Part shown: in pieces, positions 13,481-55,234 of the stretch
Position numbering within the stretch: the first letter of the stretch is position 1
How the letters are laid out: each line of letters starts with the position of its first letter
Notes under the pieces: generated by a model
What the model was told of the DNA's origin: nothing
The model's database searches: none
What the model saw: the letters and a program-made list of their open reading frames with translations, nothing else
Source: Acidimicrobiales bacterium
GTDB taxonomy: Bacteria > Actinomycetota > Acidimicrobiia > Acidimicrobiales > Aldehydirespiratoraceae
Reading direction: 5' to 3'
DNA: 64,000 bases
NCBI GenBank assembly: GCA_022425325.1
Contig: JAKMFW010000026.1
Span: forward strand, 1 to 64,000
Position numbers and translations under genes: made by a program

Positions 13481-13492
13481 TCGTCGCTGCTC

Positions 13493-15398: not shown

Positions 15399-15416
15399 CC
15401 CGGGGCAACGACGACG

Positions 15417-25430: not shown

Positions 25431-25519
25431 CACTTGCAATGCACCGCCAACTGAACGAAGGTGGAGGGCCGCTTGAGGGAGCGGTGCACTTGCACGCCAC
25501 ACGGGTCTTTGCCCGACCC
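25431..25519 (+). promoter_or_regulatory. structured leader ahead of the quaternary-amine ABC transporter
   Basis: TGCAATGCACCGC (25435-25447) pairs with GCGGTGCA-C-TTGCA (25481-25494): 13 bp interrupted by one bulged C, around a 33-nt loop. The octamer CACTTGCA occurs at 25431-25438 and again at 25487-25494, so alternative pairings are possible. GGGTC/GACCC (25503-25507 with 25515-25519) forms a small stem abutting the AGGGGG ribosome-binding site. It could sense substrate or osmolarity as RNA, or bind a regulator as DNA. Confidence 0.4.
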
Positions 25520-25532
25520 AGGGGGAATTCAC

Positions 25533-26753
25533 ATGGTCGAGATGGGCGAAGAGCTCGTCAGGGTCGAAGACGTGTACAAGATCTTCGGACCCCAGCCGCG
25601 TGGCCGAGCCTTCGAGCTCAGCCAGGGCGGCATGGGGAAAGGAGAGGTGCACGCTCGAACCGGGCACGTCATCGGCCTCCGCGACGTCAACTTCAACGTC
25701 AAGCGGGGCGAGATTTTCGTGATCATGGGCCTGTCGGGCTCCGGTAAGTCCACCGCCATCCGCACGGTCAACAAGCTGCTCGACACCACCAACGGCCAGG
25801 TTATGGTCGACGGGGTTGATGTCCAGACCCTCGACGGAACCGACCTGCAGGAATTCCGTCGTGAGATGACCGGCATGGTGTTCCAGCACTTTGCCCTCTT
25901 CCCGCACCGCACGATCATCGACAACGTCGGTTACGGCCTCAAGATCCAGGGGGTCGAGAAGAGCCGGCGCGACGAAGCCTCACTCAAGGCGCTTTCGCTC
26001 GTCGGCCTCGAGGCGTACGCCGGCTACTCACCGAGCCAGCTCTCGGGCGGCATGCAGCAGCGTGTCGGCCTTGCCCGGGCCCTCGCCGCCGATCCGCCCA
26101 TCTTGCTCATGGACGAGGCCTTCTCGGCACTCGATCCACTGATCCGTCGTCAGATGCAGGACGAGATGATGGACATTCAGGCCGAACTCCACAAGACGAT
26201 CCTCTTCATCACCCACGACCTCAACGAGGCGCTGCGCATCGGTGACCGTGTGTGCATCATGAAGGACGGCGAGGTCGTTCAGATCGGCACTCCGGAGGAG
26301 ATCCTCACCGAGCCTGCCACCGGCTACGTGGCCGAGTTCGTGCAGGACGTCGATCAGGGCCGCGTCATCCAGGTCCACGAGATCATGGTCGACCCCCAGC
26401 CCACTGCCGCCAGCGCAGGACTCGGTGAGGCACTCACCGCCCTCGGCGACCGGGCCGGTTCGTTCGTGCTCGATGCCGACGGCAAGCCCGCCTCGGTGCT
26501 CACCGCTGGTGACGGCATCCGGGTCTCGGGTTCGGGCGGGTCGCTGAGCGACGCCGTTCGAACCGATTTCCACACCTGCACCCCGGAGATGACACTCAAC
26601 GAGGTGTATTCCGCTGCCGGCAAGGGCTTGCCTATCGCGGTGTGCGATGCCGACGGCAGGCTCGTCGGCAACCTCGACCCCCGCCACATCATGGAGGAAA
26701 TGGGTCGAGTCGAAAGTCTGATTGACAACTTCGAGCGAGAGGTCTTCATGTGA
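25533..26753 (+). CDS. proV: quaternary amine ABC transporter ATP-binding protein (ProV/OpuAA-like)
   Basis: A 406-residue ATPase from the ATG at 25533 behind a strong GGGGG ribosome-binding site. Walker A is GLSGSGKST, the signature LSGGMQQR, Walker [14 protein letters not shown], and the switch His is in FITHDLNEA. The C-terminal 120 residues form a CBS-domain pair ([29 protein letters not shown]), which in OpuA senses ionic strength. It energises uptake of betaines. The stop overlaps the permease start as TGATG. Confidence 0.92.
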
Positions 26754-28870
26754 TGCGGTTCTTCCAAGAAAACGCCCCAACGGAGAATGCGTCGTTCTGG
26801 ACCAAGGACTGGACCGATCAGTACAAGGTCAACTTCGGCGAGTGGGCCGACCAGTCCGTCGACTGGATCGACACCAACCTCGAGTGGCTGCTCAAGATCA
26901 TCAAGTGGCCGTTTGACTTCTTGCTGAGCAACGTCGTCGAGGGCTTCCTCGAGCAGCGTGGTTGGTGGCTCATCGTCTTGTTGATGTTCTTCATCGGCTG
27001 GGCCGTCCGCAGCTTCCGAGTCGGCCTCTTCGCCCTCGTCGCGCTCACCTTCTGCGCCATCCTCGGTCCGGGCTACTGGATCGAGACGGCCCGCACGATC
27101 GGCTTCATCGCCGTGGCGGTGTTCTTGTGTGTGGTGATCGGTATTCCCGTCGGTATCGCCTGCGGCCGCATCGATCCGGTGTGGTCCGTCGTGAGACCCG
27201 TGCTCGATGCCATGCAGGTGGTCCACTCGTTCGTATACATGCTGCCGTTCATCTTCTTCTTCGGCATCGGTGAAGAGTCGGCGACGATGGTGACGATGGT
27301 GTTCGCGCTGCCACCGCTCATTCGCCTGACGAACCTGGGCATCCGACAAGTACCCGAGGACGTGGTCGAGGCCTCACGGGCCTATGGCGCACCCGAGTAC
27401 CGTGTGCTCACCGACGTCCAGGTCCCGCTGGCCCGTCCCGCGATCATGACCGGCGTCAACCAGACCCTGCTGCTCGCGATCTCGATGCTCGGCATCGCCG
27501 CCATCATGGGTGCGGGTGGCCTCGGCCGTCTCATGTTCCAGGCGCTCTCCGGTCAGGACGTCGCCCGAGGCGCCTCCGCCGGCCTCGCCTTCTTTCTCGT
27601 GGCCGTCAGCCTCGACCGCATCTCCCAGCCCGACGAGGGATCGTCGCAGAGTCTCTTCACCCGTCTTCGCGGCGCATGGGTCCATCGCCGTGACCCCGAG
27701 GCGCTCCTCGATGCCGAAGCCGAGGCGGCGAAGGAAGCCGAAGAGCAGAACTTCGCCGGGCGGCCCGCCCCACTCGCTGCGAGCGAGGGGCGCGGCCTCA
27801 AGGTCGCCATGATCGGAGCTGTGATCGGCATCGCTGGCGTGCTGCTGCCGTGGGCGAACGATGCTGGTTTCGCCACCAGCCACTCGCGCCGCGGCGACGA
27901 CTCACTCGTCGGCGAAACCTTCAATGGCCTGTCGGCCAACGGCGGTTCCTTCTGGGGCTTCTTCGTCCTCGTCGGCTCGCTGTTCGTGCTGCTCGCCGGC
28001 ATCTCTCGCATGACCCGTCCCGACCCGGGCCGCTTCATGTCGGCCGACGGTGCCGTCATTGCGGCCTTCGCTGCCTTCGGCGCCTCCCTGGCCTACTTGA
28101 TGGGGTCGGCAGCCGCCACCGCCGTCGACTTCAGCAAAGGCATCGGCCCGTGGGTTGCCCTCTCCGCCTCGGCCATCATGGTCGTCGGCGGACTCATCGC
28201 CCTGCGCGACGCCCCCTACGCACCGCACCGCCCCGTGGCCTCCACACCCGAGTGGCACCGGGTCGTTGGTGGCGTTATCGCGCTGCTGTTGGCCATCGCC
28301 GGTACCTTCTCGGGCTGGTCCTTCGACGAGCGCAACGACTCGGTCCTCAGTGCCGAAGACGAAGCACTCATCGAGGAACTCCGTGCCGTTGCCGACGCCG
28401 ACCCGACCCAGGTCAACCGGATCAACATCGAGGTGCAGGCGATCTACAACAGCGCCCGCCAGTCCGAGAAGATCATCAGCGACTCGTGGACCGACATCGG
28501 CGCAGGCATGGGCTGGCCGTCGTTGATCCTCGCGGTCCTCAGCCTCGGCGCTGTGCTCGCGGCCTCCGGCATGATCGGCAGCAGCGAACAGCACCGCAAG
28601 TGGCGCTGGAGCGCGATCTCGATGGGTCTGGGCGCCGCCACCTCGGTGGTCGGTCTCGCCTGGATCGCCTCCGTCACTCGAGCGACCGACCCGAGCTATA
28701 TCGTCGGTGTCGGCTCGTTCCTGGTGATGATCGCCGGCATCTTCTTCATCTCGTCCGGACGAGCCCTCGTGCGCGAGTTCTTCCGGACCGAGGTGTTCGA
28801 CGACGACCCCATGGTCGACGTCACCGAATCGTCCAGCCAGACCGAGGACGCTGTTCCCGAGCCTGTCTGA
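26753..28870 (+). CDS. proW: quaternary amine ABC transporter permease (ProW-like) with extra C-terminal membrane domain
   Basis: A 705-residue permease, about twice the usual size. Residues 1-300 are a normal ProW: an N-terminal amphipathic stretch, TM segments, and the EAA coupling loop in VEASRAYGAPEYRVLTDVQ followed by LLLAISMLGIAAIMGAGGLG. After a charged Ala/Glu linker (residues 315-345) comes a second hydrophobic region with about eight TM segments (for example VIGIAGVLLPW and FLVMIAGIFFISSG) that I do not recognise. The C-terminal tail is acidic. Coupled to proV by TGATG. Confidence 0.88.
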   Translation: MRFFQENAPTENASFWTKDWTDQYKVNFGEWADQSVDWIDTNLEWLLKIIKWPFDFLLSNVVEGFLEQRGWWLIVLLMFFIGWAVRSFRVGLFALVALTFCAILGPGYWIETARTIGFIAVAVFLCVVIGIPVGIACGRIDPVWSVVRPVLDAMQVVHSFVYMLPFIFFFGIGEESATMVTMVFALPPLIRLTNLGIRQVPEDVVEASRAYGAPEYRVLTDVQVPLARPAIMTGVNQTLLLAISMLGIAAIMGAGGLGRLMFQALSGQDVARGASAGLAFFLVAVSLDRISQPDEGSSQSLFTRLRGAWVHRRDPEALLDAEAEAAKEAEEQNFAGRPAPLAASEGRGLKVAMIGAVIGIAGVLLPWANDAGFATSHSRRGDDSLVGETFNGLSANGGSFWGFFVLVGSLFVLLAGISRMTRPDPGRFMSADGAVIAAFAAFGASLAYLMGSAAATAVDFSKGIGPWVALSASAIMVVGGLIALRDAPYAPHRPVASTPEWHRVVGGVIALLLAIAGTFSGWSFDERNDSVLSAEDEALIEELRAVADADPTQVNRINIEVQAIYNSARQSEKIISDSWTDIGAGMGWPSLILAVLSLGAVLAASGMIGSSEQHRKWRWSAISMGLGAATSVVGLAWIASVTRATDPSYIVGVGSFLVMIAGIFFISSGRALVREFFRTEVFDDDPMVDVTESSSQTEDAVPEPV

Positions 28871-28949
28871 CGAGCAATACCAGTCCGCCTGGTGGCTTTT
28901 TAGCCCCCGCGTCCGGCCAGGACCGTCGAGTGGACTATCCTTGCATCCG

Positions 28950-28971
28950 CTGTGTGACGCCTGTCGCACAG
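28950..28971 (+). promoter_or_regulatory. intercistronic hairpin between permease and binding-protein genes
   Basis: CTGTGTGAC (28950-28958) pairs with GTCGCACAG (28963-28971), with one T-G wobble and a 4-nt loop, 26 nt before the binding-protein start. TATCCT at 28936-28941 might be a -10 box of a separate promoter. Either arrangement would let the binding protein be made in excess of the membrane subunits. Confidence 0.4.
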
Positions 28972-28997
28972 CAAAACATTCCCGGGAGGGGAAACAC

Positions 28998-30227
28998 ATG
29001 AACAAGAGCATGAAGCTGCTCATCGCCCTGCTTGCGGTGTTCGGTCTCGTCGCTGCCGCGTGCGGCGACGACGACAGCACCACCGACGCCGGTACCGACG
29101 ACGCCGCCGCTGACGACGCTGCCGACGACGCTGCCGACGACGCTGCCGCTGACGACGCTGCCGACGACGCTGCCGACGACGCTGTCGACGACGCCGCCGA
29201 CGACACCTCGATGGACATTTCCTCGATCGGTGCCGGTGTCGACGTGACCATGGGTCGCGCCAACTGGGCCTCGGGCTACGTCCAGGCCGAGATCTACAAG
29301 CAGACCCTCGAGCAGGCCGGTTACACCGTGGCCAGCCCGTCGCTCCTGGAGCTTGACCCGTCGGCCGGCTACCTCGCCATGGCCGAGGGTTCGATGGACT
29401 TCTGGACCAACAGCTGGTACCCGGGCCACCTTTCGTGGCACGCCGCTGAGCTGACCGACGGTTCGCTCGTCGCCGATCACGTCTCCATCGTCGATGGTCT
29501 CTTCGCCGGCGCTGGCGTTCAGGGCTTCCTGATCACCAAGTCGGTTGTCGAGGAGAACGGCATCACCTCGATGCAGCAGATCAACGACGACCCGGCGATC
29601 CGCGAACTCTTCGACAGCGACGGCAACGGCAAGGCCAACATCTTCGGCTGCCCCGAGAGCTGGACCTGCGACAACATCATCAGCAACCAGATCACCTACT
29701 ACGGCTGGGACAACATCGAGCAGACCATCGCCGGTTACGACGCGATGTTCGCCCAGGCCACCGACCTTGCCAACGCCGGCGAGCCGATGGCGATCTACAC
29801 CTGGACCCCCTCGGCGTACGTGACCACCCTCATTCCGGGTGACAACGTGATGTGGCTGACCATGAACGCTGACGACATCCTCGACGACTCGAACCCGAAC
29901 GGCGACGAAGGCGGCGAGTTCCACGACCAGCGTCCGGGCTTCGACGGCTTCGGTGCGGACTTCTGCACCCAGCCCTGCCAGCTCGGCTGGAAGCCGGCTG
30001 ACATCCAGGTCACTGCAAGCAACGACTTCCTGGCTGCCAACCCCTTCCTCGAGGCACTGTTCCCGCTGATGCGTCCGTCGGTCATCGACATCTCGATCCT
30101 TCAGGTCGAGCAGGCCAACGGCGACGGCTCTGAGGCCGAGGTCGAGTCCATCGCCGCTGGCTGGATTGCCGACAACCAGGACCTCGTGAGCTCGTGGCTC
30201 GAAGAGGCTGCTGCCGCTGTCAGCTGA
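28998..30227 (+). CDS. proX: quaternary amine ABC transporter substrate-binding lipoprotein (ProX/OpuAC-like)
   Basis: A 409-residue lipoprotein. The signal peptide ends in the lipobox LVAAAC, so it is anchored outside the membrane. Residues 24-70 are an Asp/Ala repeat linker, followed by an OpuAC-type domain. MDFWTNSWYPGH, YGWDNIEQT, YTWTPSAYV and MWLTM hold the Trp/Tyr residues typical of the aromatic cage that binds trimethylammonium or dimethylsulfonium groups. GGGAGGGG precedes the start at 28998. The ligand (glycine betaine, proline betaine, carnitine, DMSP) is not resolvable from sequence. Confidence 0.9.
   Translation: MNKSMKLLIALLAVFGLVAAACGDDDSTTDAGTDDAAADDAADDAADDAAADDAADDAADDAVDDAADDTSMDISSIGAGVDVTMGRANWASGYVQAEIYKQTLEQAGYTVASPSLLELDPSAGYLAMAEGSMDFWTNSWYPGHLSWHAAELTDGSLVADHVSIVDGLFAGAGVQGFLITKSVVEENGITSMQQINDDPAIRELFDSDGNGKANIFGCPESWTCDNIISNQITYYGWDNIEQTIAGYDAMFAQATDLANAGEPMAIYTWTPSAYVTTLIPGDNVMWLTMNADDILDDSNPNGDEGGEFHDQRPGFDGFGADFCTQPCQLGWKPADIQVTASNDFLAANPFLEALFPLMRPSVIDISILQVEQANGDGSEAEVESIAAGWIADNQDLVSSWLEEAAAAVS
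29096..29205 (+). repeat. in-frame 12-bp tandem repeat encoding an Asp/Ala linker
   Basis: Imperfect copies of GACGACGCTGCC follow one another inside the binding-protein gene and encode DDAADDAADDAA-type sequence between the lipid anchor and the folded domain. Such a repeat can change copy number by slippage, altering linker length in 12-bp in-frame steps. Confidence 0.8.
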
Positions 30228-32333: not shown

Positions 32334-33236
32334 TCAGCCGGGAGCGTTGGCGAGAATCCACGTCCGCAGCGTCTCCGCCGCCGGCGACAGCGGTCGACCG
32401 TGCCGGCTCAGGAGCGGAAAGTGGATGCCGGTCTCCACCACCGGCCCCACGGCGGCGAGCCGTCCCTGGTCGAGCAATTCCCGAACGATGTGTTCCCACC
32501 CGAGCGCCACACCGGCCCCGGCGAGTGCAGCATGGAGCACCAGCGAGTAGTCGTTGGATCGATCTCCGGGGAGGTCGCCGTCGACCGCCACCCCATGATG
32601 CCGAAACCACCGGGGCCAGTCGAAGCGAGGTACATAGCGCTCTTCAAGGTGCAAGAGGGGCGAATCGAGCAAGGCGGCCGGATCGGCAATGTCAATTGCT
32701 GCGGCGAGTTCTGGCGCCGCCACAGGAATCAGCCGCTCGGCGCAGAACGGCACCGAGTCGAGCACAGGGTCGTCGACCGGGCCGAGTGGGATCCAGAGGT
32801 CGGCGCCGTCGCGCCCTACGCCGGTGTCAGTGTCCGTGGTCAGCACGCGCAGTTCGACGTCGGGATGAGCCTGCTTGAACTCGGGCAGACGGGGCGTAAG
32901 CCAGTGGGCGGCGAGCGAGGTGGAAACCGAGATGGTCACCGCTCCCCCGCCCAGAGGCTGGGCGGCCGCCGCTACCGCCGCATCGAGCTCTCGCAACGCC
33001 GGCGCAGCCCGTGCGGCCAGGGCCGCTCCAACGGTGGTCGGCTCGACACCATCACGCTTCCGAATGAAGAGGGCGACGCCCAAGGCTTGTTCGAGGCGAG
33101 CGACCGCATGGCTCACTGCAGATTGGCCGATCCCGAGCGTAAGGGCGGCACCGGTGAAGCTGCCCGCTTCGACAACGGCGACAACGGCACGCACCGAACG
33201 GTCGGTCACCCCCGAGGAGACATCAGTTTCTGTCAT
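32334..33236 (-). CDS. LysR-family transcriptional regulator
   Basis: A 300-residue LTTR: the N-terminal HTH contains AGSFTGAALTLGIGQSAVSHAVARLEQ-type sequence ending VALFIRKRDG, followed by a substrate-binding domain with LAGAGVALGWEHIV near the C-terminus as in GcvA-like members. It is divergent from the two oxygenase genes and shares a 30-60 bp control region holding a dyad. No ribosome-binding site is visible before the ATG at 33236, so a leaderless mRNA is possible. Confidence 0.85.
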   Translation of the reverse strand: MTETDVSSGVTDRSVRAVVAVVEAGSFTGAALTLGIGQSAVSHAVARLEQALGVALFIRKRDGVEPTTVGAALAARAAPALRELDAAVAAAAQPLGGGAVTISVSTSLAAHWLTPRLPEFKQAHPDVELRVLTTDTDTGVGRDGADLWIPLGPVDDPVLDSVPFCAERLIPVAAPELAAAIDIADPAALLDSPLLHLEERYVPRFDWPRWFRHHGVAVDGDLPGDRSNDYSLVLHAALAGAGVALGWEHIVRELLDQGRLAAVGPVVETGIHFPLLSRHGRPLSPAAETLRTWILANAPG

Positions 33237-33239
33237 GAC

Positions 33240-33262
33240 GAAATGACAAAATATCGCATTTC
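33240..33262. promoter_or_regulatory. LysR-type dyad between regulator and oxygenase genes
   Basis: GAAATG (33240-33245), an 11-nt AT-rich spacer and CATTTC (33257-33262) form a perfect interrupted palindrome in the narrow divergent intergenic region, the position and size expected of a LysR-type binding site. It starts 4 bp from the regulator start codon. Confidence 0.5.
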
Positions 33263-33293
33263 ATCCATGACCGACATCGTTCACACTGTTGCC

Positions 33294-34151
33294 ATGCACG
33301 AGCTTGCCCAGATCGTCGATCTTGATCGTTATCCGTTGCACGAGCCGGAGTCCGCCGCCTACGCCACGGCGGTTGCTGCCGCCCGCGAGGGGCTCCGCTC
33401 GGTCGGCTGCGCTGTCGTGAAAGATCTCGTCCGTCCTGAAGCGGTGACCCTGCTGAACAACGAGATCGTCGAACGCAAGCACACCACACATTTCTCGACG
33501 CAGGTGATGAACCCGTACTTCCACACCGAAGTCAACGACGAGTTCTCGAGCGACCACCCGGTCAATACCTTCCTTGAGCGCTCGAGCGGCTTCATTCCCG
33601 GCGACTCGTGGGAGCCGGGCTGTGCCACCGACGTGATGTTCCGGGCTCCCGAACTCGCACGCTTCCTCGCCGACTGCCTCGAGATCCCGGAGCTGCACTG
33701 CTACGCCGATCCGCTCGCAGGCCTCACCGCCAACATCCTTGACCCGGGCCAACTCTTCACCTGGCACTTCGACACCAACGACTTTGCCGTGACGGTGCTC
33801 GTGCAAGAAGCGGACGAAGGCGGACTTTTCGAGTACTCCCCCGCGATCCGTAACGCCGACGATGAGGGCTTCGATCGAATCGCTGCCGTGCTCGCCGGCG
33901 AGCGGGAGGGTGTGCACACGCTCGATCTGCAGCCCGGTGATCTGCAGATCTTCCGGGGGCGCCACAGCCTTCACCAGGTCTCGCGGGTGCCGGCGAACAG
34001 CCGGCCACGCCACGCTGCGATCTTCGCCTACACCGAGGAAGCCGGTGTGATCGGCCGGCTTGCTCGTACCCAGCAGCTGTTCGGTCGAGTGGTCCAGGCC
34101 CACGTGAATGCAGAAGAGCAGCGCATCCGCTCGGATGCGCTGATCGATTGA
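33294..34151 (+). CDS. Fe(II)/2-oxoglutarate oxygenase, ArpA-like
   Basis: A 285-residue protein from the ATG at 33294 (MHELAQIVDLDRYPL); an in-frame ATG at 33267 would add nine residues. WHFDTNDFAVTVLVQ supplies His-x-Asp, and the distal His is in GRHSLHQVSRV followed by Arg, giving a complete facial triad. The family looks like ArpA-type hydroxylases, related to the BesD/HalD amino-acid halogenases, but the Asp rather than Gly at the triad predicts hydroxylation. Under divergent LysR control; substrate unknown. Confidence 0.7.
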   Translation: MHELAQIVDLDRYPLHEPESAAYATAVAAAREGLRSVGCAVVKDLVRPEAVTLLNNEIVERKHTTHFSTQVMNPYFHTEVNDEFSSDHPVNTFLERSSGFIPGDSWEPGCATDVMFRAPELARFLADCLEIPELHCYADPLAGLTANILDPGQLFTWHFDTNDFAVTVLVQEADEGGLFEYSPAIRNADDEGFDRIAAVLAGEREGVHTLDLQPGDLQIFRGRHSLHQVSRVPANSRPRHAAIFAYTEEAGVIGRLARTQQLFGRVVQAHVNAEEQRIRSDALID

Positions 34152-34166
34152 TCTAGCGTTCGCTCC

Positions 34167-35075
34167 ATGGGCCTTCCACGACCGACCACCGACCTCGATC
34201 AGCTCAAGGCCGATCTCGACGAGCATGGCTACTGCATCGTCGCCGATGCGCTCTCACCCGACGAGGTCACCGCGCTGCGAACTCGCATCACCGAACAGGC
34301 CGCAGCAGAGCGAGCCCGAGCGCTCGACTACCACTATCAAGCCGAAGCCGAGGGCGACGACGTCAACCAGTGGGTGTACCAACTGATCAACAAGGGGGAA
34401 GAGTTCCAGAACCTCGCCCTGCACCCGACAGCCCGGGCGCTTGCGACCCACATCCTCGGCGCCGATCACATTCTCAGTTCGCTCGACGCCCACATCACCC
34501 ACCCGGGCAACAAGCCGATGCCGCTCCATGCCGATCAGTGGTGGATGCCGCAGCCGGTCGCTCCGGGAACCCCGCACGGCCGTCAGGGGGACATGACCCG
34601 CGAGACCGGCCCGTTCGGTGAGCCCGCTCGGGCAACCGTGCCGATCAACCCGCCGCTCGTCGCCAACATGATGTGGATGGCGAACGACTTCACGGTCGCG
34701 AACGGGGCCACCCGCATCGTGCCGGGCAGCCATCTCAGCGGATGCCTGCCCGATCCGGAGCGGACGGATTATGGCGAAATTCCGATCGAGGCACCGGCCG
34801 GCTCGGTGCTGGTCTGGGAGGGCCGTACGTGGCATGCCGCCGGCCTCAACACTGCCGATCATCCCCGCTATGGCGTGGTCACCTACTTCTGCGGACCGAT
34901 CATCCGCTCACTCGGCAACCTCACCTACGGCATGCGCACCGAGGTGCGCGAGTCGATGAGTCAGGAACTTGCGACGCTGTGTGGTTTCACCCCATGGTCG
35001 AGTTACGGCATGACCGACCACCCGTCGGCCATGGTCGCATCGCCGGGCGACGAAACCGCAGGGCGGCTGTCCTAG
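34167..35075 (+). CDS. phytanoyl-CoA dioxygenase (PhyH) family protein
   Basis: A 302-residue Fe(II)/2-oxoglutarate oxygenase. MPLHADQWWMPQP gives the His-x-Asp pair, GRTWHAAGLN the distal His and the following HPRYGVVTY the Arg for 2-oxoglutarate. ANGATRIVPGSHLSG is a typical PhyH segment. It starts 15 bp after the ArpA-like gene, so the two oxygenases form an operon and may act on the same small molecule in sequence. Confidence 0.8.
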   Translation: MGLPRPTTDLDQLKADLDEHGYCIVADALSPDEVTALRTRITEQAAAERARALDYHYQAEAEGDDVNQWVYQLINKGEEFQNLALHPTARALATHILGADHILSSLDAHITHPGNKPMPLHADQWWMPQPVAPGTPHGRQGDMTRETGPFGEPARATVPINPPLVANMMWMANDFTVANGATRIVPGSHLSGCLPDPERTDYGEIPIEAPAGSVLVWEGRTWHAAGLNTADHPRYGVVTYFCGPIIRSLGNLTYGMRTEVRESMSQELATLCGFTPWSSYGMTDHPSAMVASPGDETAGRLS

Positions 35076-35557: not shown

Positions 35558-37165
35558 TCAGCGAAGGTCGAAACCCGGGTACCCCGCCTCGGCGATCGCC
35601 GCCACCCGGGTGCGGTAGCGGGGTGCGCCGCCGAAGTAGGCCTGGTAGCGGGGCTTGCCCTCCCGCCCGGCGAGGTTCGCGTTGTACCCGGTGAACCAGC
35701 CCTTGCTGTTGCGGATGAGGAGGCGGTCCTGCATCCGGGCGACCTCCGTCGCCCACTCCTCCTCGGCTGCTTGCTCGGCCTCGATCCGTGTGATCCCCTC
35801 GGCCCTTGCGTACTCGATCAGATCACTGACCCACTCGACGCCGTCCTCGATCGCCCGGGGAAAGTTCGTCGAGCCCGACACGCTCTGCGGCCCTGCGAGC
35901 ATCAAGAGGTTGGGGAAGCCGTTCGTCATCATGCCGACCGCTGTGCGAGGACCGTCTGCCCACTCGTCAGCGAGCATCATCCCGTCGACCCCCCGGATGT
36001 CGACCCTGTCGAACGCGCCGGTGATCGCGTCGAAGCCGGTGGCGTACACGATGACGTCGAGGTCGTGGTGGCCGGCGGTCGTCTCGATGCCGTCTGCGGT
36101 GACCCGAACGATCGGCGTGTCCTGCAGCGACACGAGTTCGACATTGTCACGGTTGTACGCCTCGAAATAGTTGGTCTCGAGCGGCAGGCGTTGGAGCGCG
36201 AAACCGTGGTCGGTCGGGATCAGCTTCTCGGCGACCTCGGGATCGTCGACCCGACCTCGGATGCGGTCGGCGATGTAGTTCGAGAGTTCCTGGTTGGCGG
36301 CCTCGTCGAAGTAGATCTCCGCATAGTTGGCGCCGATGATCGCGAAGCCAGGCCGGGTGTAGAGCTCATCCCAGAGCGCTCGACGTTCCTCGGGCGTGGC
36401 CTCCCAGAACCCCCATCGCGGAACGTGCTCGAAGCCACCGACGGTGGTCGAACAGTTCTCGAAGATTTGCGGGTAGCGGCGGCGGATCTCCTCCATTTCC
36501 TCATCGGTGATCGATCGGTTGTTGAGCGGGCTGCTCCAGTTGGGTCGACGTTGGAAAACCGTGAGGTGTTCGACGATCGGCGCGATCGACGGGACGATCT
36601 GGATACCGGTGGCGCCGGTGCCGATCTGGCCGACCCGCTTGCCGGTGAGATCGAGATCGTCGGGCCAGCGGAAGGTGTGGAACGACTCGCCTGCGAACTC
36701 GTCCATGCCCTCGAAGGCCGGAAGCGTCGGCGACGACAACGGGCCGAGGGCCGTGATCACGAACCGGGCGCGGAAGGTCTCGCCGTTCGTGGCGGTGAGC
36801 GTCCACGAGCACGCTGCTTCGTCCCACACCATCGAGGCGATGCGGACCCCGAAGCGCATGTGTTCACGGAGACCGAAGAGGTCGGCGACATGGTTGAGAT
36901 AGCGGAGATTCTCCGGTTGCGAGGAGAACAGTTCCTTCCAGTGCCACGTATCGAGGATCTCTTGACTGAACGAGTAGCCGTAGGTGTAGCTCTCCGAATC
37001 GAACCGGCAACCCGGGTAGCGGTTGCGGAACCAGGTTCCGCCGAGGTCGTCCTCGGCTTCGAGCACGACCGCGTCGGCGCCAAGATCAACGAGACGCTTG
37101 ATCTGGTAGATCCCGGCGACGCCTGCGCCGATGACGATTGCCTCGTGTTCGTGTACGCCACTCAC
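35558..37165 (-). CDS. flavin-dependent Baeyer-Villiger-type monooxygenase
   Basis: A 535-residue flavoprotein. Two Rossmann motifs (IGAGVAGIYQIKRL for FAD, IGTGATGIQIVPS for NADPH) flank the Baeyer-Villiger fingerprint, here FHTFRWPDD. RNRYPGCRFDSESY and VYATGFDAITGAFDRV are also family hallmarks. It inserts oxygen next to a ketone using NADPH and O2; the substrate is unknown. Length is normal for the class B cyclohexanone/phenylacetone group. Confidence 0.85.
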   Translation of the reverse strand: MSGVHEHEAIVIGAGVAGIYQIKRLVDLGADAVVLEAEDDLGGTWFRNRYPGCRFDSESYTYGYSFSQEILDTWHWKELFSSQPENLRYLNHVADLFGLREHMRFGVRIASMVWDEAACSWTLTATNGETFRARFVITALGPLSSPTLPAFEGMDEFAGESFHTFRWPDDLDLTGKRVGQIGTGATGIQIVPSIAPIVEHLTVFQRRPNWSSPLNNRSITDEEMEEIRRRYPQIFENCSTTVGGFEHVPRWGFWEATPEERRALWDELYTRPGFAIIGANYAEIYFDEAANQELSNYIADRIRGRVDDPEVAEKLIPTDHGFALQRLPLETNYFEAYNRDNVELVSLQDTPIVRVTADGIETTAGHHDLDVIVYATGFDAITGAFDRVDIRGVDGMMLADEWADGPRTAVGMMTNGFPNLLMLAGPQSVSGSTNFPRAIEDGVEWVSDLIEYARAEGITRIEAEQAAEEEWATEVARMQDRLLIRNSKGWFTGYNANLAGREGKPRYQAYFGGAPRYRTRVAAIAEAGYPGFDLR

Positions 37166-37205: not shown

Positions 37206-38516
37206 TCAGAGGGTCAGGCTGACCGGGAAGTCGGTGAGGAGTTCTGGCCCCGCCTCCGTGACGAGGTACTGATCCTCGAGCTTCACGCCTTCGCCACCGT
37301 CGCGGGAGCCGATGTAGCTCTCGCTTGTGAGCACCATGCCGACTTCGAGTTCGTCGTCGAAGCCCCACTCGTCCCACGCCCACGGGTGGTAGATGTCGGG
37401 GTACTCGTCGCATTGGCCGACGCCGTGGAACTTCACCGAGTAGTGCCGGTACTGCTCCCGGGGCGGCATCACCGAGTCGAACGTGAGTTCACGGAACGAG
37501 CGGCCCGGCGTGAGCAGTTCGGCGTTGGTCTTCACCATCTCGTCGGCCATGTCGAACAGTTGCCGTTGATGAGCGGTCGGCGCTTTGTCGCCGCACACCC
37601 AGGTGCGAGAGATGTCGATCATCATCCCGTAGGCGCCGACGAGGTCGGTGTCGTAGGCGACGATGTCGCCGTTATCGACAACCCGGCTCGACGCCTCCTG
37701 GAACCAGGGGTTCGTTCGGGGCCCCGAAGCGAGGATCTGGGTCTCGATCCACTCCCCCGCTCGCGCGATGTTGCCTGCGTGGAGCATCGCCCAGATCTGC
37801 CGTTCGGTCATCCCCGGCTGCATCTGCTGCTGCATGTCGTACATGGCGGCCTGACAGGCGTGAGCCGAGCAGCGCATCGCCTTGATCTCGTCGGGCCCCT
37901 TGATTTTGCGGGCCTGCTCCATGAGTTCGGTGCCGTTCTCAATAGTCCAGCCGGCCCGCTCGAACTCCTTGTAGCCGACATAGTGGCACTGGTCGACAGC
38001 GATCCGGGCGTTGGGTCCACAGTGCTCGGCGACGACGTCGACCATCTCGGCCGCCATACGTCGGGCCTGTTCCTCGTGGCGTGAACCGGCGAGGAAGTAG
38101 GTGGCGCCGATCGCCGGGCGGACCTCGTTCACCACATGGCTGTGACCGGAGAGGAACTCACACCCTTCGTAGTCCCAGACAATGACGTAGCCCTCGGCGC
38201 TCACGAACGCGTAGCGGGCACCGTTGTGCATGACCCACAACTGCATGTTGGTGGTGTCGGACACGTACCGGATGTTCATCGGATCCATGACCAGGACGCC
38301 GTCGTAGCCGAATGCCTTCAGCGTCTCCGCCGTGCGATCGACGCGGTACTGCCGCATCGCCGGAAGGTCCGGCAGGTCGAGTCCCGCAGCGATCCACTCG
38401 GCCTCGAGCGCGGCGCCCGGGCCGATGGCGAGGTGATGGAGGTCACCCGCCGCACGCGCCATTTCCGGCGTGCCGTCGAGTGCCTCCTGTACCGACCGTC
38501 GGATTCGTCCACCCAT
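37206..38516 (-). CDS. dddP: DddP-like DMSP lyase (M24 metallopeptidase fold)
   Basis: A 436-residue creatinase/aminopeptidase-P-fold protein from the ATG at 38516 behind AGAGGAGA. NIRYVSDTTNMQLW and GEWIETQILASGPRTNPWF are, from recall, near-identical to roseobacter DddP rather than to peptidases. Putative metal ligands are Asp289, Asp291, Asp301, His364, Glu399 and Glu414, with Asp370 as the probable catalytic acid/base. Their spacing equals that I recall for the Ruegeria enzyme (295/297/307/371/406/421 and 377). The reaction would be DMSP to dimethyl sulfide and acrylate. Last gene of the IclR-MttB2 operon; a non-DMSP relative remains possible. Confidence 0.75.
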   Translation of the reverse strand: MGGRIRRSVQEALDGTPEMARAAGDLHHLAIGPGAALEAEWIAAGLDLPDLPAMRQYRVDRTAETLKAFGYDGVLVMDPMNIRYVSDTTNMQLWVMHNGARYAFVSAEGYVIVWDYEGCEFLSGHSHVVNEVRPAIGATYFLAGSRHEEQARRMAAEMVDVVAEHCGPNARIAVDQCHYVGYKEFERAGWTIENGTELMEQARKIKGPDEIKAMRCSAHACQAAMYDMQQQMQPGMTERQIWAMLHAGNIARAGEWIETQILASGPRTNPWFQEASSRVVDNGDIVAYDTDLVGAYGMMIDISRTWVCGDKAPTAHQRQLFDMADEMVKTNAELLTPGRSFRELTFDSVMPPREQYRHYSVKFHGVGQCDEYPDIYHPWAWDEWGFDDELEVGMVLTSESYIGSRDGGEGVKLEDQYLVTEAGPELLTDFPVSLTL

Positions 38517-38533: not shown

Positions 38534-41071
38534 CTATGCCCGCATCCGCTCGGCATCGGCATCCCAGATACAGCCGTCGACACGGGTCGCCGTCTTCATG
38601 TCGCCGATAATCTCGATCTGCCATGGACCATCGGATTCGGCCAGCGCTGCGGGCACGTACCCCATGGCGACCGACGTCTCACTGTGGTGGGCGTAGCCGC
38701 CCGACGTGACCCAACCGACGACCTCACCGTCGTGCCAGATCGGTTCGTCGCCGATCACGTCGACACCGTCACGACCGGCGTCAGACTCGACGGTGAAGGT
38801 CACGAGGGCAAGCGAGGCACCCGGACCGTCTTCGGCGTACTTCGCAGCGAGGGCGTCCCGGCCGATGAAGTCCTTGTCCATCTGGATGAAGCGACCGAGG
38901 TTGGCCTCGAACGGGTCGTAGATCGGGCGGTACTCACGAGCCCACGATCCGAAGCCCTTCTCGAGTCGGAGCGAGTTGAGCGCGTGCAGCCCGAACATCC
39001 GGATGCCGAACTCCTCGCCGGCCTCGAGCAACTGTTCGTAGACGTAGCGCTGGTAGCGGGCCGGCATCCAGAACTCGTAGCCGAGATCACCGGTGAAGGT
39101 CACCCGACCGCACCACACCGGGGCGAGCCCGATGTTGATCTCCGTGAACGCCATAAAGCGCATGCCGTTCTGGCTGACGTCGGCGTCGGTGAGCTTCTCG
39201 AGCACCGCTCGTGCGTTCGGGCCGGCGATCGACAGGCCGGCCATCTCGAAGCCGAGTGTTTCGTAGCGGACCGAACCGTCGGCGGGCAGATGCTGGTCGA
39301 ACCATCGCTCGTAGTACCGCTCGGCGATGCCCGAACCGAAGAGCACGAATTCCTCACCGTCGCGGGTGTTGCCGGTGGCGCCGCCCGTGATGGTCGATGC
39401 CGGACCTTCGGCGGCCCCGGTCGCTGCGCCGAGCGTGGCGACGGTGAGGTCGCCGATCAGGTTGCCCGCCGGGTTGGTCATCGGCGTGAGTGACATGCGA
39501 CCGGCGTTCGGGATGCGACCGGCCAGGATGCGATCGAGGTACGCGCGAGCGCCGGGACCGCTGAACGTGAACTTCGAGAAGCCGGTGGTCTCCCACAGCC
39601 CGACACTCGAGCGGACGGCGAGGGTCTCCTCGCGAACCTGGTCCCAGGCGTTGGAGCGGCCGAACGTGACGTCCTCGACGGCCTCCTCACCGTCCTGCTG
39701 GAACCAGAGTGCGGCTTCCAGACCGAAACCGTCGCCGAACACCGCGTTCTTCGCCGCGAGTCGGTCGTAGATCGGCGAGGTCTGCACGCCACGCCCAGCC
39801 GGGAGGAACTCGTTCGGGAACGTGATGCGGAAACGACGGGAGTAGTTCTCGCGCACCTTCTCGTTGGTGTACGCCATCGTCGAGTAGTCGCCGTACCGGC
39901 TGATGTCCATGCCCCAGATGTCGAAGCCTGGATCGCCGTCGACGATCCAGTTGGCGAGGGAGAGTCCGACGCCGCCGCCCTGCGACAGGCCGGCCATGAC
40001 CGCGCAGGCCGACCAGTAGCCGGGTAGGCCCCGAACCGGGCCGAGCAGCGGGTTGCCGTCGGGGGCGAAGGTGAACGGGCCGTTGATGACCTGCTTGATG
40101 CCGGCCTCGGCGAACACCGGGAAGTGCTTGAAGCCGGTCTCCAGCGACTCGGCGATGCGCTCAAGGTCGGGCGTGAGAAGGCGGGCGCCGAAGTCCCACG
40201 GGGTCTGGGAGGTCGACCACGGCTTGCCGCGACGCTCGTAGGTGCCCATCAGCAGGCCGTTGCCCTCCTGCCGCATATAGATCTCGCCACCGAAGTCGAC
40301 GGCGTGGATGATCTCCTTGCCGGTCTTCTCGTTGTATTCGATGACGTCGGGGATCTCCTCGGTGAGGAGGTACATGTGCTCCATCGCGAGCAGCGGCGTC
40401 TCGAGCCCGACCATGCGGCCGACCTCACGGGCCCACAGGCCACCGGCGTTGACGACGTGCTCACAGTGCACCGTCGCCTTGTCCTCGTCAGTGCGGGGGT
40501 CGTAGACGGTGAGGTCCCAGCCGCCGTCGGCGGCGCGGGTGATGTCGCGGACCCACGAGTGACGATGTGTCTCGGCACCGCGGTTGCGGGCGCACTCGAG
40601 GTAGGCGTGGGTGATCTGGCTCGGGTCGAGGTGGCCCTCGTGGGCGTCCCACATCGCGCCCACGAAGTACTGCGGATCGAGGATCGGCAGGAGCTCCTGG
40701 GCCTCCTCGGCGGAGATCAGTTCGGTCTCCATGCCGAGGTACCGACCACGGGCATGGCTCATCTTGAGCCAGTCCATGCGCTCGGGCGTGTCGGCGAGCA
40801 TCACACCACCGGTGATGTGCATCGAGGCGTCCATCCCCGATTCCTTCTCGATCTCCTCGTACAGCGTGATCGTGTACTGCTGGAGCTTGGCGACGTTGGG
40901 GTCGCCGTTGAGCGTGTGCATGCCGCCCGCCGAGTGCCAGGTGGAACCGGCGGTGTACTCAGCACGCTCGAGGAGTACGACGTCGGTCCAGCCCAGCTTG
41001 GTGAGGTGGTACAGGACGGAGGCGCCGACGACGCCACCGCCGATGACGACGACCTGGGTGTTTGTTTTCAT
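38534..41071 (-). CDS. dimethylglycine/sarcosine dehydrogenase-like flavoprotein with GcvT domain
   Basis: An 845-residue two-domain protein. The N-terminal FAD-dependent oxidoreductase (VVVIGGGVVGASVLYHL) contains His46 in STWHSAGG, the position that carries covalent FAD in dimethylglycine dehydrogenase. From about residue 430 a GcvT-type folate domain follows, with YEFWMPARYQRYVYEQLL and LRLEKGFGSWAREY. It would oxidise an N-methyl group and capture the formaldehyde unit on tetrahydrofolate. GAAGG precedes the start. Its place beside a Rieske oxygenase and MttB2 fits betaine breakdown. Confidence 0.85.
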   Translation of the reverse strand: MKTNTQVVVIGGGVVGASVLYHLTKLGWTDVVLLERAEYTAGSTWHSAGGMHTLNGDPNVAKLQQYTITLYEEIEKESGMDASMHITGGVMLADTPERMDWLKMSHARGRYLGMETELISAEEAQELLPILDPQYFVGAMWDAHEGHLDPSQITHAYLECARNRGAETHRHSWVRDITRAADGGWDLTVYDPRTDEDKATVHCEHVVNAGGLWAREVGRMVGLETPLLAMEHMYLLTEEIPDVIEYNEKTGKEIIHAVDFGGEIYMRQEGNGLLMGTYERRGKPWSTSQTPWDFGARLLTPDLERIAESLETGFKHFPVFAEAGIKQVINGPFTFAPDGNPLLGPVRGLPGYWSACAVMAGLSQGGGVGLSLANWIVDGDPGFDIWGMDISRYGDYSTMAYTNEKVRENYSRRFRITFPNEFLPAGRGVQTSPIYDRLAAKNAVFGDGFGLEAALWFQQDGEEAVEDVTFGRSNAWDQVREETLAVRSSVGLWETTGFSKFTFSGPGARAYLDRILAGRIPNAGRMSLTPMTNPAGNLIGDLTVATLGAATGAAEGPASTITGGATGNTRDGEEFVLFGSGIAERYYERWFDQHLPADGSVRYETLGFEMAGLSIAGPNARAVLEKLTDADVSQNGMRFMAFTEINIGLAPVWCGRVTFTGDLGYEFWMPARYQRYVYEQLLEAGEEFGIRMFGLHALNSLRLEKGFGSWAREYRPIYDPFEANLGRFIQMDKDFIGRDALAAKYAEDGPGASLALVTFTVESDAGRDGVDVIGDEPIWHDGEVVGWVTSGGYAHHSETSVAMGYVPAALAESDGPWQIEIIGDMKTATRVDGCIWDADAERMRA

Positions 41072-41101: not shown

Positions 41102-42358
41102 TCATTGCTCGATGGTCGGAGGTGCAGGGTTGGGACCGGTGCCAAGGCGGGCCGCCTCGGAGCCGTCATCGCCAGGGGGGACCGTCAAGCCGGCGAGCGA
41201 TTCGCTGGTCATGCAGTCGGCGAGCATGTTGTGGAACCGATGCAGTGGTTCCTCGAAACGGGGAGCGAGCGGGCCGGGCTGAATCCGGCCTCGGGTGAGG
41301 CCGCGCTGGCTGCGCTGGCAGATGTCGATGTCCTCATTGTTGACGTCGATCCAGAACGTGCGCGTGGCGTCGAGTTCTCCACCGGTGAGCTCGGGGGTCG
41401 ATGGCGGCAAGAGGAACGTGCAGGTCTCGCGGGTGAGGCCGGGGGCGATCGGGTCGAGCCGCATCACGAACACATGGTTGGGCAGCACCGAGAAGATGAC
41501 ATTCGGGTACAGCGCGATGTGGCGACCACTGGTGGCATCGGATTCGTCGAGGCCCTCGGCTGCGGGAAGCACGAGCCAGTCGTCGCGATCGTCGCCGCTG
41601 ACTGGGGTGGTGGTCTGGCCGCAGTACATGCCGGCGCCCTGGTAGCGGTAGTGATCCTTCACCCGGCTGACCTTGGCGAGCTCCGGATGCACCCAGGTCA
41701 GGTGGTAGTACTCCTGAAAGTTCTCGCTGATGAGCTTCCAGTTGGCCTCGATGTCGAGCACCTGGCTCTCCTCGACCCGCCACTGGTCAAAGCCGTACCC
41801 GGCCATGCGTTCCGGCAGGTCACCGAGCCAGACATCGAGTTCGGGGGTCTCGTCGGCGAGGCAGGCGAACAGCAGCGGACCCCACGTACCGACCCGAACG
41901 GGGATCAGGCTGAAGCCGTCGCGGTCGAAGTCGTCGCGGGGCACCTCGTCGAAGAACGGGGTGGCCTTGAGGCTGCCATCGGTGCCGTAGCCCCAGCGGT
42001 GGTACGGGCAACGGATCGTGCCGGCGATGTCGCAGTCGGATTCGGCGAGTTCGGTGCCGCGATGGCGGCACGAGTTGAGGAAGCCGCGAAGCTCCCCATC
42101 GTCGCCGCGGGTGATCACGATCGACTTCTGCCCGACCTGACGCACGAGCATGCGCCCCGGCTCGGCGACCTCGCCGGCGAGACCGACGGTGACCCACGCC
42201 CGTTCGAAGACGAGTTCCTGTTCGAGGGCGAAGAAGCGCTCGTCGACATACGCCGACGGGTTGAGGCCGGTCGACTGCCGCAACGGGGCACGGGTTCCGG
42301 CCCAGGCGGACTCGTCGGTCCAGTCGGTCATGTCGGGGGCGACGGGGATGTTGGTCAT
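41102..42358 (-). CDS. Rieske non-heme iron oxygenase alpha subunit (GbcA-like)
   Basis: A 418-residue protein. The Rieske [2Fe-2S] ligands are Cys97/His99 (CRHRG) and Cys117/His120 (CPYHRWGY). The catalytic iron site is ENFQEYYHLTWVHPEL with the two His. This layout occurs in glycine-betaine and stachydrine demethylases (GbcA, Stc2) as well as ring-hydroxylating enzymes. Next to a dimethylglycine-dehydrogenase-like gene, oxidative N-demethylation of glycine betaine or a related betaine is the best guess. No partner reductase gene is in the window. Confidence 0.8.
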   Translation of the reverse strand: MTNIPVAPDMTDWTDESAWAGTRAPLRQSTGLNPSAYVDERFFALEQELVFERAWVTVGLAGEVAEPGRMLVRQVGQKSIVITRGDDGELRGFLNSCRHRGTELAESDCDIAGTIRCPYHRWGYGTDGSLKATPFFDEVPRDDFDRDGFSLIPVRVGTWGPLLFACLADETPELDVWLGDLPERMAGYGFDQWRVEESQVLDIEANWKLISENFQEYYHLTWVHPELAKVSRVKDHYRYQGAGMYCGQTTTPVSGDDRDDWLVLPAAEGLDESDATSGRHIALYPNVIFSVLPNHVFVMRLDPIAPGLTRETCTFLLPPSTPELTGGELDATRTFWIDVNNEDIDICQRSQRGLTRGRIQPGPLAPRFEEPLHRFHNMLADCMTSESLAGLTVPPGDDGSEAARLGTGPNPAPPTIEQ

Positions 42359-42380
42359 GACGGCGCTCGTTGCAGGCGGA

Positions 42381-43943
42381 TCAGAAGTCGGTCTCCACAC
42401 CGCCCTCGGCGATGCGGCGGTCGACGAAGTCGTCGAGTTCGGCTCGTACGGCATCGTCGAGGGCGGGGGCCTCGTACGTACCGAGCAACTCTTCGGCTCG
42501 CCGTTCGGCGTGGTCGTAGGAGGTCGGTCGACCGGCCTCGTCCCAGGTCTCGAAATTGCGCCAGTCCGAGATCATCGGCTTGTAGAACGCATCGCGGTAC
42601 CGATCCTGGGTGTGCTGGGTGCCGAAGTGATGCCCACCCGGGCCGACCTCGGCGATGGCGTCGACCGCTCGGGTGGCGTCGTCGACGATGAGGGGCTGGA
42701 GGAAGGTCCCGACCATCGAGAGCAGGTCGGCATCGATCACCATCTTCTCGGGGCTGGAGTGCAGGCCACCCTCCATCCATCCGGCGCCGTGGAAGACCAG
42801 GTTGGCGCCGCCCATGATCGCCCCCCACAGGGAGAACACGCTCTCGTATCCGGCCTGCGTGTCGATGGCGTTGGCGGCACAGACGTTGGAGCTGCGGTAC
42901 GGGATGCCGTAGCGGCGGGCGAGCTGGCCGCCGAGCATCGCCGACTGCATGAACTCTGGTGTCCCGAACGCCGGCGAGCCCGACTGCATGTCGACATTGC
43001 TGGTGAAACCGCCGTACATGACCGGTGCGCCTCGGCGCACGAGTTGGGTGAAGGCAATACCGGCGAGCGCCTCGGCGTTCTGCTGCACGACCGCACCGGC
43101 GACGGTGACCGGTGCCATCGCACCCGCCAGCGTGAACGGGGTAAGGATGATCGGCTGATTACGAGACGAGTACTGGATGATGCCTTCCGACATCGGGATG
43201 TCGAGGCGGAGCGGTGAGCTGACGTTGATCACCGAGTGCACGATCGGGTGCGTGTCGATCTCGTCCTCGGAGAGGCCTCGGACGATCCGCACCATCTCGA
43301 GACAGTCGAGGTTGCGCTGGGCGCCGAGCGAGTAGACGTTCACCGCCTTGTTGGTGAGCGTGAGGATGTCGCGGGTGGCCTCCAGGTGACGGATCGACGG
43401 GTGGAGATCGACTGGTTCGACCGGATAGCCGGCGTGGCTGTGAAGGATGTTGAGGCTCTGGGTCAGTTTCAGCAGCGTCCGATAGTCCTCACGGTTACCG
43501 GTACGCCGACCTCCCCGGCGGTCCATGTAGTTCGGGGCGCTTGCAACGGCCGTGAAGGCGACATTGTCACCACCGATCACGAAGTCGTGCGCCGGATCGG
43601 GCGCATGCATCGTGAACTCGCTCGGCACCGACGAGATCAGTTCGGTGATGAGTTCGGGGTCGAAGCGGACCCGTTCGCCGTCGATCGCGGCACCGGCCTC
43701 GGCCCACATCTCCAGGGCCTTGGGATGCAGGAAGTCCATCCCGGTGTCGCGCAGCACCTCCAACGAGGCGAGATGGATCGATTCGAGTTCGTCGTCGCTC
43801 ACCACCCGGGTCGGTTCCATCGGGCGCTTGTACAGACGCCATGGAACCTGCTGCGGCCCGACGGGGCCGGTCGGCCGTTCGCGACGGCCGCCCCGACGAC
43901 GCCGACCACCGGTCTCGGTGGTGTCGGTGGGCGTGTCGGTCAC
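42381..43943 (-). CDS. MttB-family methyltransferase, paralogue 2
   Basis: A 520-residue non-pyrrolysine MttB homologue starting at the GTG at 43943, which overlaps the IclR stop as GTGA. Family segments include ASAPNYMDRRGGRR, IILTPFTLAGAMAPVTVAGAVVQ-type sequence and VGPGGHHFGTQHTQDRY. Residues 11-21 are an Arg/Gly tail (TGGRRRRGGRRE). It has no corrinoid gene of its own, so it presumably uses the carrier encoded at 12.8 kb. Operon partners suggest a methylated betaine or DMSP as substrate. Confidence 0.88.
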   Translation of the reverse strand: MTDTPTDTTETGGRRRRGGRRERPTGPVGPQQVPWRLYKRPMEPTRVVSDDELESIHLASLEVLRDTGMDFLHPKALEMWAEAGAAIDGERVRFDPELITELISSVPSEFTMHAPDPAHDFVIGGDNVAFTAVASAPNYMDRRGGRRTGNREDYRTLLKLTQSLNILHSHAGYPVEPVDLHPSIRHLEATRDILTLTNKAVNVYSLGAQRNLDCLEMVRIVRGLSEDEIDTHPIVHSVINVSSPLRLDIPMSEGIIQYSSRNQPIILTPFTLAGAMAPVTVAGAVVQQNAEALAGIAFTQLVRRGAPVMYGGFTSNVDMQSGSPAFGTPEFMQSAMLGGQLARRYGIPYRSSNVCAANAIDTQAGYESVFSLWGAIMGGANLVFHGAGWMEGGLHSSPEKMVIDADLLSMVGTFLQPLIVDDATRAVDAIAEVGPGGHHFGTQHTQDRYRDAFYKPMISDWRNFETWDEAGRPTSYDHAERRAEELLGTYEAPALDDAVRAELDDFVDRRIAEGGVETDF

Positions 43944-44722
43944 GATGCCTCGCTCATGGGGTCGGGGTAGGACGTTTGGCTCCATCCGAGTTCGGCAGAG
44001 ATTCGTTCGGCCCGATCGAGCACGACGGCGGCGATGCGGTCGGCATCACCCTCGGCCGGGAAACGAAAGGACGGGCCGTAGACGTAGAGCACACCGAGCG
44101 CGCGGCCCGAGCCACCGATGACCGGTGAGGAACACGACGAGAGGCCGTCGACATACTCGCCGTGGCTCCATAGGACCCGCCTCACGCGGGCTTGCCGGAT
44201 GCGGGAGCGCAGCTTGCCGGGATCCGTGATGGTGTTGTCGTTGAAGGTGGCGAGGTTGCCGGCGAGATACCGATCGATTTCGCGATCGTCCCAGGTGGCC
44301 ATCACGACAATGCCCGCCGATCCGGCGTGCATCGGGACGCGTGTGCCGGTCCAGTTCTCGGCCTGGATCGGTTTCGGGGCGTCGACCTGATCGACGGTGA
44401 TCGTGTCGTCACCGGAGACGATCGAAAAGCAGGCTGCTTCGTCGAGTTCCTCGCTCAGATCGATGAGGTGGGGGTGGGCAATGGCCTCGAGGCTTGCGGT
44501 CGAGTCGGTGGTCGACACCATGCCGTGGACGAGTGGACCGATGTGGTAGCTGCCATCGTCGCCCCGAACGACCGCCCCGGCGTGTTCGAGGGTCGCGAGG
44601 AGTCGGCCGGTGGTGCTGGTGGCCAGCCGAACGCGCGTCGACAGGTCGACGAGCCCTCCGGGCTCTCGACCGATCTCCGACAGCAACAACAGTGCGCGAT
44701 CAACGCTCTGCACGGTCCCCAT
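43940..44722 (-). CDS. IclR-family transcriptional regulator
   Basis: A 260-residue protein from the ATG at 44722 (MGTVQSVDRALLLL). An N-terminal winged helix (LATSTTGRLLATLEHAGAVVR) is followed by the IclR effector domain with HAGSAGIVVMA and SCSSPVIGGSGRALGVLYV. It is the first gene of the MttB2-Rieske-dehydrogenase-DddP operon and is coupled to MttB2, so it probably regulates this operon in response to a pathway compound. TAATTT about 15-20 nt upstream of the start may be a -10 box. Confidence 0.85.
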   Translation of the reverse strand: MGTVQSVDRALLLLSEIGREPGGLVDLSTRVRLATSTTGRLLATLEHAGAVVRGDDGSYHIGPLVHGMVSTTDSTASLEAIAHPHLIDLSEELDEAACFSIVSGDDTITVDQVDAPKPIQAENWTGTRVPMHAGSAGIVVMATWDDREIDRYLAGNLATFNDNTITDPGKLRSRIRQARVRRVLWSHGEYVDGLSSCSSPVIGGSGRALGVLYVYGPSFRFPAEGDADRIAAVVLDRAERISAELGWSQTSYPDPMSEAS

Positions 44723-44783
44723 ACCGAGTGCGGAAATTACCACTGAGCGGGAAGCGGCGCACGCGATTCCCGTAGGGTGGGAA

Positions 44784-52683: not shown

Positions 52684-52714
52684 CGGCCTCAGGAGATGTC
52701 GGAGCGGTCGGTGT

Positions 52715-54208: not shown

Positions 54209-54218
54209 CTCACGCCTT

Positions 54219-55232: not shown

Positions 55233-55234
55233 GG

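Follow-up and report, generated by a model that had tools for sequence, protein, structure and literature searches.

A DddP-like M24-fold protein encoded beside glycine betaine demethylation genes in a marine acidimicrobial genome

The locus and its neighbouring genes

The window, i.e., the whole stretch of 64,000 nucleotides that was analysed, comes from a marine Acidimicrobiaceae genome (2.6 Mb, 95% complete) and carries at 37206-38516 a gene for an M24-fold protein of 436 residues. The reading frame reported in the preliminary description is real; its strand, which was absent there, is minus. The gene starts at ATG 38516, located 17 bases after the upstream gene and preceded by a ribosome-site-like motif (gagaggagac); a longer version starting at ATG 38624 was rejected, since it would overlap the upstream gene. 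Pfam detected an M24 domain (106 bits) and, more weakly, a creatinase N-terminal domain. An actinobacterial host had been suspected, and the protein is indeed 97-99% identical to proteins of three named Acidimicrobiaceae MAGs, which are the nearest named ones; near-identical proteins also recur in the majority of the genomes of this genus that were searched. Given these near-identical proteins and this recurrence, the gene is not on a stray contig. A promoter and terminator scan of this GC-rich stretch returned nothing usable. The genes relevant to this work are the following:

43940..44743, minus strand: IclR-family regulator (BhcR-like), first gene of the operon, from sequence matches
42381..43985, minus strand: MttB1, an MttB-superfamily, MtgB-like non-pyrrolysine methyltransferase (PF06253, 641 bits)
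41102..42454, minus strand: Rieske oxygenase similar to GbcA (glycine betaine monooxygenase) and stachydrine demethylase, from sequence matches
38534..41071, minus strand: dimethylglycine dehydrogenase of 845 aa, DAO-FAO_M-GCV_T-GCV_T_C architecture (Pfam)
37206..38516, minus strand: DddP-like M24-fold protein of clade B2 (defined below), putative dinuclear-metal lyase, from sequence, fold and tree
35558..37165, minus strand: Baeyer-Villiger-type flavin monooxygenase, downstream of the M24 gene, from a domain match
34167..35075, plus strand: PhyH-family 2-oxoglutarate oxygenase
32400..34151, plus strand: large protein with a HalD-like 2-oxoglutarate oxygenase domain
25461..30227, plus strand: glycine betaine-type (OpuABC-type) ABC importer of three genes, i.e., ATPase (25461-26753), permease (26750-28870) and OpuAC binding protein (28941-30227)
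12791..19060, plus strand: MtgC-like corrinoid protein, DUF1638 protein, MtgD-like pterin methyltransferase, RamA-like activator and a third MttB

The identities of the neighbouring genes confirm the earlier proposal of an operon for betaine-like substrates. The nearest structures to MttB1 are 4yyc and the glycine betaine methyltransferase 9yce, and the solved structures nearest to the dimethylglycine dehydrogenase are those of mitochondrial dimethylglycine dehydrogenases (500-503 bits). The first ATG of the Rieske gene overlaps the preceding gene, and its true start may be GTG 42400 or ATG 42358. It had also been stated that the M24 gene closes the operon; this is incorrect in this genus, since the Baeyer-Villiger-type gene, on that strand too, begins 40 bases further downstream, an arrangement found only in the window and in its near kin (L041-L043).

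The composition of an MtgB-type demethylation system (MttB, B12 protein, pterin methyltransferase and activator) is complete in the window. The same MtgC-DUF1638-MtgD-RamA-type set is known from Ruegeria pomeroyi, where it has been described in connection with the demethylation of glycine betaine (PMC12478193), and the segment 12791-19060 represents a full MtgBCD-like set in an actinobacterium. The gene content points to an operon that would dismantle glycine betaine, for which a role as methyl donor is predicted. The importer set found at 25461-30227 adjoins the M24 gene in L057, L058, L215, L216 and L219-L224. Likewise, several relatives (among L219-L228) retain the HalD-like and PhyH-family genes (32400-35075) next to the M24 gene. 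Elsewhere in the window, a single run on the minus strand (51367-57696) includes genes for a LysR regulator, a second MttB, a DHDPS-family protein, an aldehyde dehydrogenase and a DAO-type oxidoreductase, and resembles a cluster for hydroxyproline-betaine or proline-betaine breakdown.

Likeness to DddP and position in the family

The match to roseobacter-type DddP proposed earlier lies far beyond chance: the window protein aligns with RlDddP at 365 bits (3.6e-108, 43% identity) and with RdDddP at 359 bits (3.6e-106), while the best peptidase match among solved relatives scores 49 bits. The AlphaFold model (pLDDT 86.6, pTM 0.87) shows the M24 pita-bread fold with its N-terminal domain, and four DddP entries are its best structural matches (Z 46, reached with 4b28; 1.8-2.0 A, 43% identity), followed by prolidases at Z 34 or less and by ectoine hydrolase and creatinase at Z 31-32.

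The seven active-site residues named earlier are all present, i.e., Asp289, Asp291, Asp301, His364, Asp370, Glu399 and Glu414 align with Asp295, Asp297, Asp307, His371, Asp377, Glu406 and Glu421 of RlDddP; their spacing, however, is not exact as had been claimed, given that 63 residues separate Asp301 from His364 versus 64 in RlDddP, the result of a one-residue deletion. In DddP, the sulfur-binding site is formed by a conserved Trp and Tyr, and the alpha proton is abstracted by an Asp (PMC5395565; PMC4108388). The substrate-tunnel residues Tyr366 and Asp377 correspond to Tyr359 and Asp370 of the window protein, and Trp95 of RlDddP, presumably the Trp meant in PMC5395565, corresponds to Trp94; the window protein, clades A and B (defined below) and the DddP2-like type all keep a Trp at this position.

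The match of the seven residues was rejected as a proof of DMSP lyase identity, since almost all relatives, including paralogues that are not DddP, have it, and several of these residues are also found in ordinary M24 peptidases. The six metal ligands of DddP (three Asp, one His and two Glu), all kept in the window protein, are also kept in paralogues and are not decisive for DddP membership. Almost the whole wider family conserves the metal ligands together with Tyr359 and Asp370, which therefore do not single out DMSP lyases; Asp291, Tyr359 and Asp370, all kept in the window protein, do separate it from the ordinary M24 outgroups, which lack them.

The core acidimicrobial members differ from DddP at several positions beside the catalytic residues (Gln368 for Leu375, Met299 for Cys305 and Thr397 for Cys404), and these substitutions, which count against a DddP-like reaction, cluster near the active site (p 0.04). 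They were discarded as a mark of operon function, given that most of these positions are unchanged from DddP in L028 and L030, although the operon is also found in the genomes of these two (L216, L217).

The genome has two other DddP-like paralogues, and loose dddP searches would catch both of them. In one, just outside the window (G000:C42:66623-67780; L004/L229), Asp370 is replaced by Gly and Trp94 by Phe; the other (G000:C97:5187-6314; L006) has Phe in place of Trp94.

The position of the protein in the family was determined from two trees that agree with each other, one obtained with FastTree (133 rows) and the other with IQ-TREE under a mixture model (66 rows). In the latter, clade A, which includes the solved DddP enzymes and those that pass the curated equivalog cut-off (NCBIfam NF043017, 600 bits), has 100% support; clade B1, formed by Mesorhizobium and its kin, has 95%; and clade B2, formed by Acidimicrobiia and Chloroflexota and including the window protein, has 97%. 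The grouping of A, B1 and B2 is supported at 98%. The term clade B is used here as a convenience name for B1 and B2 together, as a single clade of the two received a FastTree support of 0.20 and was not settled by IQ-TREE either. Constraining the window protein to fall within clade A carries a cost of 157 log units and is rejected (p-AU 2.3e-5); its score against NF043017 is 464.5 bits, under the cut-off that relatives from Roseobacter, Oceanimonas and Pseudomonas exceed. Therefore, of the placement within DddP proposed earlier, the part that stands is membership of the wider A and B group; the protein lies outside the verified DddP clade (p-AU 2e-5; 464.5 versus 600 bits). On sequence grounds it is a DddP-like protein, sister to verified DddP and not a true member.

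A further lyase lineage may lie outside this group. The DddP of the scallop symbiont HWgs001, verified by expression, is 55% identical to Oceanimonas doudoroffii DddP2, and its catalytic residues are D263, D265, D275, H339 and E390 (PMC10989825). The corresponding residues of L147 are found at 266, 268, 278, 342 and 393, exactly three above those of the symbiont enzyme, and on the basis of this numbering we take L147 to be a DddP2-type protein. In the tree L147 is placed outside A and B (the alternative placement is not rejected, p-AU 0.25), so that the verified lyase lineage of O. doudoroffii DddP2 type probably, though not firmly, branches outside them; verified lyases would therefore flank clade B on both sides. 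As a proof of clade B function, this bracketing is not firm, given the p-AU of 0.25.

Gene linkage across relatives

To assess linkage, flanks of mostly around 9 kb per side were searched for genes with at least 50% identity to MttB1 and to dimethylglycine dehydrogenase, in loci that were collected by homology to the query and are not a random sample. Both partners are present in none of the 40 clade A loci, in 35 of the 37 rhizobial-type (B1) loci, in 16/33 acidimicrobial-type B2 loci, some of which are cut by contig ends, and in none of the six Chloroflexota-type loci; OpuABC-type genes adjoin several further B2 loci. Among 61 relatives, the clade B gene was found in 24 genomes, all of them with MttB1 (at least 60% identity); MttB1 occurs alone in five, both genes are missing from 32 and the clade B M24 gene never occurs alone (Fisher 2e-12, a value that ignores kinship).

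One contig of a Granulosicoccaceae MAG (L045) carries an IclR regulator (80%), MttB1 (87%) and the M24 gene (67%) with a serine ammonia-lyase alongside, and represents either a recent transfer or misbinning. In Oceanimonas (L109) and Pseudomonas (L091), even DddP genes that pass the cut-off have betaine-type transporters (BCCT or OpuABC) and genes of the Rieske and DAO types in their vicinity, which sets them apart from the 20 Roseobacter-family loci that were checked.

Possible reaction, competing explanations and known systems

The explanation that we favour, at somewhat better than even confidence, is that the window protein is a DddP-like eliminating lyase with the M24 fold and two metals, belonging to a separate clade B tied to glycine betaine use, and acting on DMSP or on a nitrogen analogue. 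It would be a homodimeric "pita-bread" enzyme with a centre of two metals and a DddP-like mode of action. A small onium zwitterion would be gripped at its carboxylate by the metals and caged at its positive group by Trp94 and Tyr359, and Asp370 would remove the alpha-carbon proton, after which the onium group would leave. DddP-like elimination appears as the most likely reaction because the Trp/Tyr sulfur-binding pair and the Asp base of DddP are in place. This branch would have become tied to glycine betaine use, and its neighbours would strip the methyls of glycine betaine by means of the MtgB-like MttB1 with MtgC, MtgD and RamA, the Rieske oxygenase, and then the dimethylglycine dehydrogenase.

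The substrate would probably be an osmolyte brought in by the same OpuABC-type importer. DMSP, the most likely one, would give dimethyl sulfide and acrylate; as a substrate it is plausible but unproven, and the extension of DMSP catabolism to this lineage, suggested in the preliminary description, is possible and equally unproven. DMSP would enter through the same kind of importer as glycine betaine, and thus a combined operon for glycine betaine and DMSP is possible. Alternatively, a nitrogen analogue, for instance beta-alanine betaine, which would yield trimethylamine and acrylate, would fit the cation cage equally well. The partner genes of clade B encode amine-demethylating enzymes, which counts against DMSP, and point to glycine betaine demethylation rather than acrylate use. 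An AcuI-type acrylate reductase, the usual although not strictly defining companion of DddP, was not found in the 95% complete genome (best match 79 bits, cut-off 297), a further point against DMSP. Many clade B hosts are Mesorhizobium, and DMSP is not an obvious substrate for these bacteria. The genome also encodes three DmdA-like (GcvT-like) proteins of 338-379 bits, all under the cut-off of 410 (G000:C78:5124-6203, C79:24067-25152 and C73:2411-3469; L186-L188), which may be DMSP demethylases of other clades. We tentatively consider, at clearly less than even confidence, that clade B, with its range from rhizobia to marine Acidimicrobiia, represents a separate enzyme for the use of osmolytes of the glycine betaine type that acts on a nitrogen betaine and not on DMSP, and that environmental dddP counts that include it overstate bacterial DMSP cleavage.

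A hydrolase similar to creatinase, ectoine hydrolase or prolidase, which would split an amide or amidine C-N bond of a methylated amino acid and feed dimethylglycine or sarcosine to the operon, is rather unlikely. C-N hydrolysis is typical of M24 enzymes (PMC5395565), the model does match ectoine hydrolase and creatinase (Z 31-32), and partners such as MttB1 and dimethylglycine dehydrogenase (35/37 B1 and 16/33 acidimicrobial B2 loci, 0/40 in clade A) would suit such a product; nevertheless, DddP is far closer in fold and sequence (Z 46; 365 bits versus 49 for the best peptidase), Trp94 is kept together with the three residues (Asp291, Tyr359 and Asp370) that the ordinary outgroups lack, and RlDddP, which has the same constellation, is inactive on Val-Pro (PMC5395565). 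An ordinary Roseobacter-type DddP (the reading first proposed), acquired by horizontal transfer and with DMSP cleavage as its sole role, is very improbable: the 43% identity, the presence of all the named residues and the marine host group agree with it, but the protein belongs to a separate, well supported clade shared with other Acidimicrobiia and Chloroflexota, next to a neighbouring branch of rhizobia, its placement in clade A is rejected, its score is below the curated cut-off, and its gene partners are different and conserved. A general Xaa-Pro peptidase present in the operon by chance is barely credible, even though many relatives are automatically annotated as "Xaa-Pro peptidase family protein", given that the linkage is kept from Acidimicrobiia to rhizobia, that matches to peptidases are weak in fold and sequence, and that neither its closest kinship nor its active-site letters place the window protein with Xaa-Pro peptidases or creatinases.

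Homologues of dddP in Acidimicrobiia and other Actinobacteria had been reported by homology (PMC7494906; PMC13280387), and sequences from Mesorhizobium and Pseudomonas have been counted as dddP in sediments (PMC7039863). A 2018 study reported no functional ddd gene in sequenced Actinobacteria, though some isolates released dimethyl sulfide (PMC6309047). In the open-access literature we found no description of the clade B split or of its tie with MttB and the dehydrogenase, and nothing on point about M24 proteins in MttB operons or about beta-alanine betaine breakdown. Dimethyl sulfide is a climate gas, and surveys that count clade B genes as its producers may arrive at overestimates. Environmental dddP counts will have to be corrected if clade B enzymes do not cleave DMSP; if they do, clade B would provide a gene that accounts for the release of dimethyl sulfide in one actinobacterial lineage.

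Compared with known systems, the window protein shares with DddP (RlDddP, 4RZY; RdDddP, 4B28; NF043017) the M24 fold, 43% identity, the metal ligands and the equivalents of Tyr366, Asp377 and Trp95; it differs in belonging to a sister clade, in its score (464 versus more than 600 bits), in the one-residue deletion before the catalytic His, and in the linkage of its gene type to MttB and dimethylglycine dehydrogenase, which DddP genes lack. DddP2 of O. doudoroffii and the HWgs001 enzyme (PMC10989825) have the same catalytic constellation and belong to the wider family with demonstrated lyase activity, but the DddP2 type has a shorter N-terminus, and L147, its putative representative, is 40% identical and falls outside A and B. 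Creatinase, the ectoine hydrolase DoeA and prolidases share the M24 fold (Z 31-34), with less than 26% identity, and the M24 outgroups tested lack the Tyr and Asp positions of the DddP type. With the MtgBCD system of R. pomeroyi (PMC12478193), the window shares an MtgB-like MttB, the B12 protein, DUF1638, the pterin enzyme, RamA and dimethylglycine dehydrogenase; the operon of the window adds to these the DddP-like M24 enzyme, of which we found no mention in the text of PMC12478193.
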